Translations under genes and position numbers: made by a program
The notes under the pieces: model-generated
What the model was told of the DNA's origin: nothing
Seen by the model: the letters and a program-made list of their open reading frames with translations, nothing else
The model's database searches: none
Assembly: GCA_902573175.1 (NCBI GenBank)
Contig: CACGIS010000001.1
Span: 62,001-126,000, forward strand
Source: Paracoccaceae bacterium
GTDB lineage: Bacteria; Pseudomonadota; Alphaproteobacteria; Rhodobacterales; Rhodobacteraceae
Reading direction: 5' to 3'
Length of the DNA stretch: 64,000 nucleotides
Part shown: one piece after another, positions 58,176 to 62,545 of the stretch
Layout: each line of letters begins with the position of its first letter
How positions within the stretch are numbered: the stretch's first letter is position 1

Positions 58176-58913
58176 ATGTTTAGAATAGTAATTTCGGTTT
58201 TATTTTTTTTGGCAACTCAATCATTTGCTTTAGACCTATCTAAAATGAGCGAATCTGAAAGAGCGCTATTGCAAGAAGAAATTCGACTATACCTACTGGA
58301 AAATCCTGAAGTTATCATGGAAGCCGTTGATGTTTTGAGGAAAAAAGAGCAGCAAGCAGCGATTCAATCTGATTTTGAGTTAGTGAAAAAGCATGAAAAG
58401 GCTATTTTTGAAGATGGCTTTTCGTTCATAGGCGGAAATCCAAATGGGGATATCACGCTGGTGGAGTTTGTTGATTACAGATGTGGTTATTGCAAGAAAG
58501 CCCATAATGAGGTTGAAAAGCTTCTGAGTACCGATGGGAATATTCGATTTGTAATAAAGGAGTTTCCCATACTTGGCGACGACTCTTTAATGTTATCTAA
58601 ATTTGCTTTGGCAGTTAAGATCGTACATGGCGATGAAATGTATAAGCTCGTTCACGACATTTTAATTAAAATGAAAGCTCCACCAAGTGAGAAAGCCTTC
58701 GATCAAATTATAAGCAACCTAAATTTAGATGCCAAACTTGTTGAAAGCGCAATGGAAAGTAATGAGGTCAATGGAATGATTGCTTATACACGCACTCTAG
58801 CTGAAAGGCTGAAAATAAGTGGAACTCCAACCTTTGTTATGAATGATGAATTAATCCGGGGCTATGTTCCTTTCGATGCTTTAATTAGTATTGTTGATAA
58901 TAAAAGAAACTAA
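58176..58913 (+). CDS. DsbA-family thiol:disulfide oxidoreductase
   Basis: A 245-residue exported thioredoxin-fold protein. The signal peptide (FRIVISVLFFLATQSFA) is followed by an N-terminal helical region LYLLENPEVIMEAVDVL typical of the Com1/ScsC-like group, then the active site FVDYRCGYCKKAHN with CGYC at 103-106 and the cis-Pro loop SGTPTFVM. It oxidises or isomerises disulfides in the periplasm. No dsbB is adjacent. The 3' end overlaps the convergent hydrolase gene by 33 nt. Confidence 0.9.
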   Translation: MFRIVISVLFFLATQSFALDLSKMSESERALLQEEIRLYLLENPEVIMEAVDVLRKKEQQAAIQSDFELVKKHEKAIFEDGFSFIGGNPNGDITLVEFVDYRCGYCKKAHNEVEKLLSTDGNIRFVIKEFPILGDDSLMLSKFALAVKIVHGDEMYKLVHDILIKMKAPPSEKAFDQIISNLNLDAKLVESAMESNEVNGMIAYTRTLAERLKISGTPTFVMNDELIRGYVPFDALISIVDNKRN

Positions 58914-59768
58914 GGCACTTACGGTTTCTTGTGGATATTGATCAGGAAAAAAATGACCACCTCCCATGGGCTTTTTTTCAATATTTGAAAAATTTTTACT
59001 CCAAGTTGCAGGGATATCGAAGTGCTGAGCCATTGCTCCAGTTTTCCCCCACATCACGCAAGCTGGGATCTCAAGACAGCGACTTCGATCTTCTTTATCA
59101 AGAGCCCAGTCGATATGTATTGCGGCTCTATAATCGTCACACATAGAGCGAATTGTATCTACGTTATTCCAAGATTTTCTGTATTGACTGAGTTTTTCTG
59201 AGTCGAAGTTGTCAAGATTTGCTGCACCCCAACCCAAAAGACAAGATTCATAAAAATAATCAGGATCGGCAGAAATCAATTTTTCTGGAAAAGGTGATTG
59301 TTGGGCCAAAAATAACCAATGATAATAGCTTTGAGCAACTTGAGTTGTTAACTCAGAAAGCATAAGTTCCGTGGGTACTATATCCATTAGTGTAATAGAT
59401 TTTATTCTATCTGTCTCATCCAGTGCCATTCTATGAGCTACTCGCCCTCCTCGATCGTGACCCACAATATGAAACTTTTTGAAACCCAAGTGCGACATTA
59501 ATTGAATTTGGTCCTCAGCCATATGTCTAAAACTAAAATTTTCAACACCCGTTGGCTTTTCCGAATTACCATACCCTCTAAGATCGGAACAGATAATAGG
59601 ATAATTTTCAGGAAACTTGTCAGCTATTCCTGCCCACATTGCATGAGTTTGCGGAAATCCATGGAGAAACAAAATCGCATTTTCAGATGCGTTATCTTTG
59701 TTTTTTATTCTAAAATTTATTTCTATACCATTCACTTTGGCATTAGAGAGCAAGAAATCATCAAACAT
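58881..59768 (-). CDS. Alpha/beta hydrolase, haloacetate (fluoroacetate) dehalogenase-like
   Basis: A 295-residue alpha/beta hydrolase. It begins with FLHGFPQTHAMWAGIA (oxyanion loop) and DLRGYGNSEKP. The nucleophile elbow GHDRGGR gives D105, with R106 and R109 where fluoroacetate dehalogenase has its two carboxylate-binding arginines. D129 (LMDIVPTE) and H272 (GGGHFFPD) complete the triad. H150-W151 (SYYHWLFLAQ) and Y213 (CDDYRAA) correspond to the halide pocket. These match the fluoroacetate-dehalogenase pattern better than epoxide hydrolase. Activity is inferred. Its stop end overlaps the DsbA-like gene; its start overlaps the M20 gene by 8 nt. Confidence 0.83.
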   Translation of the reverse strand: MFDDFLLSNAKVNGIEINFRIKNKDNASENAILFLHGFPQTHAMWAGIADKFPENYPIICSDLRGYGNSEKPTGVENFSFRHMAEDQIQLMSHLGFKKFHIVGHDRGGRVAHRMALDETDRIKSITLMDIVPTELMLSELTTQVAQSYYHWLFLAQQSPFPEKLISADPDYFYESCLLGWGAANLDNFDSEKLSQYRKSWNNVDTIRSMCDDYRAAIHIDWALDKEDRSRCLEIPACVMWGKTGAMAQHFDIPATWSKNFSNIEKKPMGGGHFFPDQYPQETVSALVSFIINNTN

Positions 59769-61146
59769 TTTGCAACTCAGAAAAGGAATTTATCACTCTT
59801 ACCCAACTACGGATACCTTTTCGGAAACTCTCAAGATCATATTTCTCGTTCGGGCTATGAATTTGGTCATCATCTTTAGCGAACCCTATTAGAATTGGAT
59901 CTACCCCAGTTATTTGCTGGAAATGACCAGCAATCGGAATAGAACCGCCGCAACCAACGAAAGCGGCCTCAATTCCCCATTCTTCTGAAATCGCTTCTCT
60001 TGCTTTTTCAAACTCTGGAGATGAGGTATCCATTTGGCTGGCTTTTGAGGCTTCATGCTCTAAAAATGTAACTGTACAGTCAATGGGGACAAGATTTTGA
60101 ATCATTTTTCGGAAAGACTTGCGGATTTTAAAAGGATCTTGGCTTCCTACCAATCTAAAGCTTATTTTTGCTGAGGCTTGGGATGGTAAAACCGTTTTAA
60201 ATCCCTCATTGATATAACCAGATTTTATACCATTAATTTCACAAGTTGGTCTCGACCATATCATCTCAAGCGGAGACCTGCCTTTTTCTCCTGCTGGTAT
60301 AGATAAACCAACTTCACTGAGGAATTGATCATGTTTGAAATTTAGACTTTCCCATTGATCTTTAATATTTTGGGATAATTCTGAAACGCCATCGTAAAAA
60401 CCTGGTATTGTTATAGTGCCATCTTTATCATGCATAGCAGATAAAACATTAGTAAGTAGTCGTGCTGGGTTGGTAGAAATACCTCCGTACATTCCAGAAT
60501 GAAGATCTTTATCTGGTCCGGTTATAATAATTTCTTCTTTAAGAATGCCCCTCAACATAGTTACAATCGAAGGGACTCTACTTTCAAATAACCAAGTATC
60601 GCATATTAGAACAATATCTGAAGATATTTCCTTTTTATATTTTTTCATGAATGGAACTAAGTTTGGAGATCCGCTTTCTTCTTCACCCTCAAAGAAAAAA
60701 GTGACCTTAAATGGAAGTGAACCATTTTGAGCAATCCAGACCCTGCAAGCTTCAACAAACGTCATTAGTTGCCCTTTATCATCTGATGATCCACGAGCAC
60801 GTATAACAGATCCGCTTGGCAGTTTTTCGATAATCGGTTCAAATGGGTCATTGTCCCATAATTCTAATGGGTCAACAGGCTGCACATCGTAATGTCCGTA
60901 AAATAGGATGTGGGGCCCACTGTCAGATCCTAAGTCTCCTAAAACTAAGGGATGTCCCCCTGTTTCATATTTTTCTACTTTTGCGCCAAAAGATTTTAGA
61001 TCCGCAACTAACCAATCTGCCGCTTCAGCACAGTCTTTTTCAAACTCGGGATCGGTGGATATTGATTTTATTTTCAGAAAATCAAACAGCCTATTTAGAT
61101 TTTGTTCCATTTCACTGTCTATGCGCGACAAAGTGGCATCTAGCAT
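59761..61146 (-). CDS. M20-family peptidase (dipeptidase-like)
   Basis: A 461-residue metallopeptidase. The metal-binding region ILFYGHYDVQPVDPLELW has the His-x-Asp pair; RGSSDDKGQLMTFVEA holds the bridging Asp; FFEGEEESGSPNL has the catalytic Glu and a ligand; the last His is in IHSPNEKYDLESFRKG. The middle dimerisation lid (about residues 200-330) has HSGMYGGISTNPARLL. It fits the CNDP/DapE-like group of dipeptidases. Cytoplasmic, with no signal. Coupled to the dehalogenase-like gene (8-nt overlap), divergent from hemA. Confidence 0.89.
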   Translation of the reverse strand: MLDATLSRIDSEMEQNLNRLFDFLKIKSISTDPEFEKDCAEAADWLVADLKSFGAKVEKYETGGHPLVLGDLGSDSGPHILFYGHYDVQPVDPLELWDNDPFEPIIEKLPSGSVIRARGSSDDKGQLMTFVEACRVWIAQNGSLPFKVTFFFEGEEESGSPNLVPFMKKYKKEISSDIVLICDTWLFESRVPSIVTMLRGILKEEIIITGPDKDLHSGMYGGISTNPARLLTNVLSAMHDKDGTITIPGFYDGVSELSQNIKDQWESLNFKHDQFLSEVGLSIPAGEKGRSPLEMIWSRPTCEINGIKSGYINEGFKTVLPSQASAKISFRLVGSQDPFKIRKSFRKMIQNLVPIDCTVTFLEHEASKASQMDTSSPEFEKAREAISEEWGIEAAFVGCGGSIPIAGHFQQITGVDPILIGFAKDDDQIHSPNEKYDLESFRKGIRSWVRVINSFSELQNV

Positions 61147-61300: not shown

Positions 61301-62545
61301 ATGACAAAAGAAATAGATAAAAGTTTTTATGAGCAGAAACTCGATGCTGCGTTAGAAAGCCTGCATTTAGAGGGAAGATATCGCACTTTTATTGAAATAG
61401 AGCGCGCCAGAGGCAGTTTTCCAAATGCACGATGGATAGCAAAAGATAATACAGAAAGATCAGTTACTGTCTGGTGCGGTAACGATTACCTCGGCATGGG
61501 CGAAAGCGATGTTGTTTTAAAAGCAATGCAAGACGCGCTTAGTAGCGCTGGTGCTGGTTCTGGTGGTACTAGAAATATATCTGGAACTACAGTGCATCAT
61601 AAAAAACTTGAACATGAGTTAGCCAGCCTGCATGACAAAGAGGCTTGTCTTTTATTCACAAGCGCCTACGTAGCCAACGATTCAGCTCTTTCAACTCTTT
61701 CAAAGCTCTTTCCCAATCTGATTATATACTCTGACGAGTTAAACCATGCTTCAATGATCGAAGGAATACGTAGAAATGGTGGTGAGCGGAGAATTTTTCG
61801 TCATAATGACGTAGAACACTTGCGTATACTATTAAAGGCTGATGATCCAAAAGCTCCCAAACTGATAGCTTTTGAATCCATTTATTCTATGGATGGCGAT
61901 TTTGCGCCGATCAAAGAAATATGTGATTTAGCTGAAGAATTTTCAGCCTTAACATATATTGATGAGGTCCATGCTGTTGGAATGTACGGGAAAACCGGTG
62001 GTGGACTGGCTGAACAGGAAAATTTACTATCTCGTATTGATATTATTAACGGAACCTTGGCAAAAGCTTTTGGAGTCATGGGTGGATATATTGCTTCATC
62101 TGAGAAACTTTGCGATGCTTTAAGATCTTATGCACCCGGGTTTATATTTACAACTTCGTTACCGCCTGCGATTGCGGCTGGCGCGGCCGCATCTGTAGAA
62201 CACTTAAAAGCTAATCATTTGCTCCGAGAGCAACACCAACTACAATCAAAGGTTCTGAAAGCAAGGTTGAAGGCTGTGGGCCTTCCTATAATTGATCATG
62301 GAAGCCATATAATACCAGTTGTGGTAGGTGACCCCATCCATACAAAAAAACTTTCTGATATGCTATTGTCAGACTTTGATATTTATGTGCAACCAATAAA
62401 TTACCCAACCGTTCCGCGAGGCACCGAACGCCTTAGGTTTACTCCGTCTCCCATGCACGGGCCAAAACAGATAGATCACTTGGTAGCATCGATGGACTAC
62501 CTTTGGTCTCATTGTGCGCTGAATCGTGCCGAGTTAAGCGCATAA
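61301..62545 (+). CDS. hemA: 5-aminolevulinate synthase
   Basis: A 414-residue PLP enzyme condensing glycine with succinyl-CoA, the C4 route to haem and tetrapyrroles used by alphaproteobacteria. It carries [59 protein letters not shown] and the PLP lysine in [16 protein letters not shown]. Length is normal. It is transcribed alone from the divergent M20/hemA region, which contains an FNR-like dyad. Confidence 0.96.

Follow-up and report, generated by a model that had tools for sequence, protein, structure and literature searches.

Can a chromosomal gene of a Rhodobacteraceae lineage encode an enzyme able to cleave the carbon-fluorine bond, do its active-site residues set it apart from its relatives, and does it work together with the M20 peptidase gene beside it? 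These questions are raised by an open reading frame in the window, by which we mean the whole 64,000-nucleotide stretch of contig CACGIS010000001.1 (Paracoccaceae bacterium) that was analysed. We put the probability at about 75% that this gene encodes an active alpha/beta-hydrolase haloacetate dehalogenase of the FA1/H1 branch, old and chromosomal, which would detoxify or salvage natural monohaloacetates. This reading builds on what we observed of the active-site residues, the family relationships, the predicted fold, the position in the tree, the dN/dS values and the synteny.

Active-site residues, fold and family membership

The gene runs on the minus strand from an ATG through 295 codons with no internal stop, and the features that matter for its identification are the following.

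58881..59768, minus strand: fluoroacetate (haloacetate) dehalogenase-family alpha/beta hydrolase, 295 aa (open reading frame, homology and predicted fold)
59430..59456, minus strand: codons 105-113, with nucleophile Asp105 and the DRxxRxxxR arginines R106, R109 and R113
59382..59384, minus strand: codon of catalytic Asp129 (position and alignment)
59316..59321, minus strand: codons of halide-pocket His150 and Trp151 (position and alignment)
59130..59132, minus strand: codon of halide-pocket Tyr213 (position and alignment)
58953..58955, minus strand: codon of catalytic His272 (position and alignment)

The residues that the initial annotation had assigned to this frame (D105, R106, R109, D129, H150, W151, Y213 and H272) are all found at those numbers. 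The Asp-His-Asp triad (105, 272 and 129) is present, as is, by alignment, the His-Trp-Tyr halide pocket (150, 151 and 213); R113 completes the DRxxRxxxR motif, and S147, W180 and M246 are residues that FAcD-H1 has too. Pfam returns only general alpha/beta hydrolase families for the window protein, and no NCBIfam model passes its own cut-off among the 25 of 29 matches listed. The best match among solved structures is FAc-DEX FA1 (1y37; phmmer E 3.3e-86), followed by the FA1 D104 mutant (3b12), NOS0089 (3qyj) and DAR3835 (8sdc); passages of the review PMC11022551 describe FA1, NOS0089 and DAR3835, together with H-1 and RPA1163, as defluorinases.

An overlay of the predicted structure on known fluoroacetate dehalogenases had been proposed as a check. 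The AlphaFold2 model (monomer) has a mean pLDDT of 95.2 and a pTM of 0.94; it was built on an alignment of 67 rows, in which the window protein is joined by 66 locus proteins that are 280 aa or longer and were thinned at 80% identity. The model's best Foldseek match is 3b12, the FA1 mutant with fluoroacetate (TM 0.96, rmsd 1.2 Å, 44% identity), and VIA-align superposes the two with a Z of 47.0 and an rmsd of 1.1 Å over 291 residues. The fold, cap included, thus fits 3b12, with the correspondence of the pocket residues being read from the alignment. Because the model was built from an alignment of the protein's own relatives, its fold cannot count as separate evidence for a function.

We also placed the protein in a quick tree of 109 rows, leaving out 12 named loci, rows shorter than 240 aa and locus rows more than 85% identical to a kept row. 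A branch with an SH-aLRT support of 99 splits the tree into 67 rows, to which FA1, H1 and the window group belong, and 42 rows that hold RPA1163, DAR3835 and NOS0089. On the 67-row side, 64 rows (support 81) are Rhodobacterales or unnamed alphaproteobacteria, many of them marine by name, and next to these come FA1, H1 and one Roseiarcus row (support 82). The rows and loci of this sample were chosen by likeness to the window protein, so that relatives of H1 and FA1 from elsewhere may be missing. Taken together, sequence, triad, DRxxRxxxR, pocket, predicted fold and tree support well the membership of the window protein in the fluoroacetate dehalogenase family.

It is nonetheless conceivable that the native substrate is an ester, an epoxide or another small acid and that any dehalogenation is incidental. 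The lack of an NCBIfam match over cut-off would fit such a reading, and alpha/beta hydrolases are promiscuous; Serratia SlDefH, as told in passages of PMC13230308, is an esterase, deformylase and dehalogenase in one, and works through a Ser nucleophile. The window protein has Asp rather than Ser as nucleophile, together with DRxxRxxxR and a full halide pocket, and it nests with FA1 and H1. Nor does it bear the epoxide-hydrolase marks. In the relevant passages of PMC7429986, DRxxRxxxR after the nucleophile is the mark against epoxide hydrolases and an aromatic residue after the Asp is the mark of one; here Arg106, not an aromatic residue, follows Asp105 and DRxxRxxxR is present, on which grounds we rejected an epoxide hydrolase identity. 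The other mark of that paper, an aromatic X in HGXP, occurs in the window protein as HGFP but does not discriminate, because FA1, H1 and RPA1163 have it too. We consider a different native substrate improbable, and continue with the haloacetate dehalogenase as the preferred reading.

The signature marks the family rather than this gene

The initial annotation had taken the complete residue set to distinguish fluoroacetate dehalogenase from epoxide hydrolases and other relatives. Across 104 rows (the window protein plus L001-L103, with same-genome copies included, L001 being the window itself, and partial genes scored as gaps), 100 have His at position 150 (the rest being 2 gaps, 1 Pro and 1 Tyr), 101 have Trp at position 151 (against 2 gaps and 1 Phe) and 100 have Tyr at position 213 (against 3 gaps and 1 Phe), and a further 27 family loci all carry the triad, the three arginines and His-Trp-Tyr. 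Since these residues are near-invariant across the dehalogenase family, the signature marks membership and does not single out the window gene, and the idea that the pocket is peculiar to it is ruled out. What the signature can do is tell the family apart from other alpha/beta hydrolases, because DRxxRxxxR occurs in only one of the 11 PF00561 matches in the gene's own genome (assembly 58.8% complete), namely in the window gene. A HAD-superfamily L-2-haloacid dehalogenase was likewise ruled out, as the Pfam, NCBIfam and best structural matches are alpha/beta hydrolases. The earlier interpretation is thus well supported as to family membership, whereas the residues do not make this frame unusual within the family.

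The alignments also brought up several variants. A genome of the same genus carries a second FAcD-like gene (L020, G006:C7:4520-5389), 38-39% identical, with the His-Trp-Tyr pocket and Gln at 180. In L017, from a genome of the same family (G023), the triad and arginines are kept and the three pocket positions are Tyr, Phe and Phe, so that this protein would offer a natural contrast in assays. Roseobacter-group homologues L057, L061, L129, L130, L132, L133, L135, L136 and L138 replace Trp180 by Phe and keep an intact halide pocket; the exchange at 180 may alter the size range of their substrates. The PDB 4b9a group comprises a Pseudomonas aeruginosa relative titled as a putative epoxide hydrolase and solved with bound MFA and as T131D; these entry titles suggest a natural member without one catalytic Asp.

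The M20 gene is a conserved neighbour

The genes that surround the dehalogenase are as follows.

58176..58913, plus strand: DsbA/ScsC-like thioredoxin-fold protein, convergent neighbour
59761..61146, minus strand: M20 metallopeptidase (NCBIfam PRK09104 subfamily), directly upstream of the dehalogenase
61301..62545, plus strand: gene beyond M20, conserved context, which we take from its sequence to be 5-aminolevulinate-synthase-like (ALAS)

The 3' end of the M20 gene overlaps the start of the dehalogenase by 8 bases (59761-59768). At its own 3' end, the dehalogenase shares 33 bases (58881-58913) with the 3' end of the DsbA-like gene that converges on it. Same-genus orthologues repeat the arrangement, with M20 upstream and DsbA and aminotransferase genes downstream, and many Roseobacter-group loci, at about 50-57% identity, have M20 and ALAS on the upstream side.

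To place M20 in the wider family, 71 dehalogenase places in family genomes were split at 45% identity, a value picked after inspection of the list. M20 lies within 5 kb of 25 of the 28 dehalogenase genes of at least 45% identity, in 24 cases upstream on the same strand, and of none of the 43 below that value. Of the three remaining genes, two come from genomes whose M20 sits on a different contig, and for the third no M20 match was obtained. A gap of 0.8-2.5 kb separates the two genes in five of the 24 same-strand pairs. Four genomes from one sublineage of the genus (G003, G005, G007 and G011; loci L008-L011) keep the dehalogenase, at 46-50% identity, beside ALAS without an M20 orthologue, their only M20 match being a 37-38% paralogue on another contig.

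These data bear on the proposal that the two proteins share a pathway, for example with M20 releasing a haloacyl amino acid on which the dehalogenase then acts. The 8-base overlap and the contrast between 24 of 28 close and 0 of 43 distant genes speak for it. Against it, M20 occurs in 146 of the 150 family genomes and a close dehalogenase in 28, which means that M20 does not depend on the dehalogenase; the four genomes that hold the dehalogenase beside ALAS with only a distant M20 paralogue, and the pairs that are set apart by a gap, point the same way. We regard a joint pathway as very unlikely and rejected M20 as a functional partner, since nearly all the genomes have M20 even where the dehalogenase is lacking. 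Of the coupling that had been claimed, the adjacency and the overlap are borne out and the shared function is not: M20 is probably a conserved neighbour by inherited position.

Proposed reaction and substrates

Activity, substrate range, role and the fate of glycolate are put forward here conditionally, with the mechanism following from homology to FA1 and RPA1163 as told in passages of PMC11022551. Asp105 would attack the alpha-carbon of a monohaloacetate (SN2) held by Arg106 and Arg109, and the leaving halide would be taken up by His150, Trp151 and Tyr213. The resulting ester would then be hydrolysed by water activated via His272 and Asp129, freeing glycolate. According to the same source, Trp150 of FA1 is needed for C-F, not C-Cl, cleavage; as its equivalent Trp151 is kept, C-F capacity is likely, and the enzyme should be able to break C-F bonds in addition to C-Cl, C-Br and C-I bonds. 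Judged from its sequence, the window protein would likely defluorinate in vitro. The active-site pocket could also persist by descent alone.

Known family members act on other haloacetates too (passages of PMC11022551), and algal and other marine sources of bromo-, iodo- and chloroacetate are described in part of PMC8490876. The natural substrates may thus be bromo-, chloro- or iodoacetate as much as fluoroacetate, and the role is probably detoxification or salvage of naturally occurring monohaloacetates.

Fluoride export, glycolate and the fluoroacetate cassette

A narrower alternative holds that the protein is a dedicated fluoroacetate-degrading enzyme, with fluoroacetate or another monofluorinated acid as its main marine substrate. 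The complete fluoride pocket with Trp151 and an active site near-identical to that of H1 are what such an enzyme should have. On pUO1 (L152, NC_005088.1 7282-16154) the order is a SAM-dependent methyltransferase, a thioesterase, H1 and crcB, among IS1071 and IS481 elements, and passages of PMC11812338 describe a similar set in Caballeronia S22, with aconitate methyltransferase, fluoroacetyl-CoA thioesterase and CrcB alongside FAcD. The window dehalogenase has M20, DsbA-like and aminotransferase genes as neighbours, and no cassette of the pUO1/S22 type. When the pUO1 proteins were searched by tblastn (E 1e-4) against 158 loci, the methyltransferase and thioesterase were found only in pUO1 itself, and CrcB beside a dehalogenase only in pUO1 and in L153; for L001-L023, which carry about 1.5 kb of flank only, this absence is weak. 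The pUO1 thioesterase also has matches in 0 of 16 genus genomes, in a search run without a positive control.

CrcB itself occurs in six of the 16 genus genomes, in the gene's own genome on a contig other than that of the dehalogenase, and in 147 of the 150 family genomes; being near-universal, it says little about fluoroacetate use. Two genomes of the genus have CrcB about 6.5 kb from the dehalogenase, G003 (L153, G003:C10:22000-36500) and G007 (contig C4). In L153, RodZ, GcpE and an aminotransferase-family gene stand between the two, and the related G005 and G011 gave no CrcB match. With these intervening genes, the lack of CrcB in G005 and G011 and its near-universal spread, we rejected the G003 and G007 arrangement as a fluoride cassette. 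Fluoride riboswitches were found in 0 of 16 genus genomes, and control by one was rejected. As natural organofluorines are also few (passages of PMC11227584), we doubt that the enzyme is dedicated to fluoroacetate.

The haloacetate dehalogenase of broader range that we favour would sit in a lineage with other haloacid genes. In 10 of 16 genus genomes, not including the gene's own, HAD type II haloacid dehalogenases score above the cut-off, which fits general haloacid exposure. GlcD-like matches occur in all 16 genus genomes, and none of these exceeds the curated glcD cut-off, compared with 2 of 14 control genomes, so that the glycolate step is putative. Overall, the gene content of the lineage seems to point to the handling of haloacids at large more than to fluoroacetate specifically.

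Host, spread and selection

Among named records, three Rhodobacteraceae genomes come closest, AG-359-N23 (92%), AG-343-P20 (89%) and AG-461-P07 (87%), and the marine attribution rests on the names of related records (HIMB11, MED-G08, REDSEA-S34_B6, Roseobacter and Sulfitobacter). Dehalogenase matches were obtained in 10 of 16 genus genomes (E 1e-20), the other six being without a match and several of the assemblies incomplete, and in 63 of 150 family genomes (E 1e-40), with 87 lacking a match at that threshold; given these absences, the gene is dispensable. Compared with five same-genus orthologues, the window gene has NG86 dN/dS values of 0.08-0.24, dS reaching roughly 1 or higher for two of these orthologues, and it is under purifying selection. 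It looks like an old gene, chromosomal in the Roseobacter group and common to many relatives.

Related genes also occur in plasmid and viral sequence collections. FAcD-like genes below 60% identity occur in 233 plasmid records, among them 57 from Klebsiella, 44 from Pseudosulfitobacter and 39 from Pantoea. Four IMG/VR contigs classed as viral (L148-L151), from 19 candidate stretches, encode FAcD-like proteins at 34-38% identity, and these contigs may be host DNA.

Significance

Haloacetate dehalogenase genes have already been reported by annotation from marine metagenomes (passages of PMC10919026 and PMC12750322). In one open-licence library, judged by titles, abstracts and some passages, we recognised no assayed member from marine Rhodobacteraceae, and the assayed fluoroacetate dehalogenases named in the cited passages come from soil and other non-marine bacteria and one cyanobacterium. 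A branch near FA1 and H1, with a full pocket and a conserved chromosomal place in Roseobacter-group bacteria, provides ready candidates for assay. This branch changes no known mechanism, and makes testable which natural haloacetates the sea supplies.

A more far-reaching possibility, to which we give little credence, is that a C-F-capable haloacetate dehalogenase has long persisted on the chromosomes of the Roseobacter group, inherited vertically and lost repeatedly, and that plasmid-borne soil H1 and FA1 were perhaps recruited from this alphaproteobacterial branch. If true, such long retention would mean that natural sources steadily supply surface seawater with monohaloacetates, fluoroacetate perhaps among them.

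Comparison with known systems

The HAD L-2-haloacid dehalogenases, such as marine ZgHAD, carry out a like reaction on haloacids but belong to another superfamily with another fold and are encoded by separate genes; as described in part of PMC8490876, a marine haloacetate role of ZgHAD was established by knockout in Zobellia. Closer to the window protein, RPA1163, DAR3835 and NOS0089 (3r3u, 8sdc and 3qyj) share its triad, three arginines, His-Trp-Tyr and Trp180, but lie across the 99-supported branch at 35-41% identity and have Ala, Val or Ile rather than Met at 246. FAc-DEX FA1 (Burkholderia sp. FA1; 1y37, 3b12) has the same triad, arginines and pocket as the window protein at 44-45% identity and a predicted-fold rmsd of 1.1-1.2 Å, differing in having Ala147 and Leu245.

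We also compared the window protein with FAcD-H1 (DehH1) of Delftia acidovorans (the former Moraxella sp. B), whose reference sequence was taken from plasmid pUO1 and which is 47.5% identical over 99% of the query with the same residue numbering. In H1, passages of PMC12955510 give Asp105 and His272 as catalytic and His150, Trp151 and Tyr213 as binding fluoride. Among the 13 positions that we compared (105, 106, 109, 113, 129, 147, 150, 151, 180, 213, 245, 246 and 272), 12 are identical, the sole difference being Ala245 in the window protein and Gln245 in H1. Selections on 2-fluoropropionate, in the same passages, kept Trp180 and Met246, with one active variant lacking Met246, and favoured Ala or Val at 245; at these positions the window protein has Trp180, Met246 and Ala245. 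The two genes also differ in their setting: H1 is plasmid-borne among insertion sequences, whereas the gene described here lies on a chromosome, with M20, DsbA and ALAS as neighbours.
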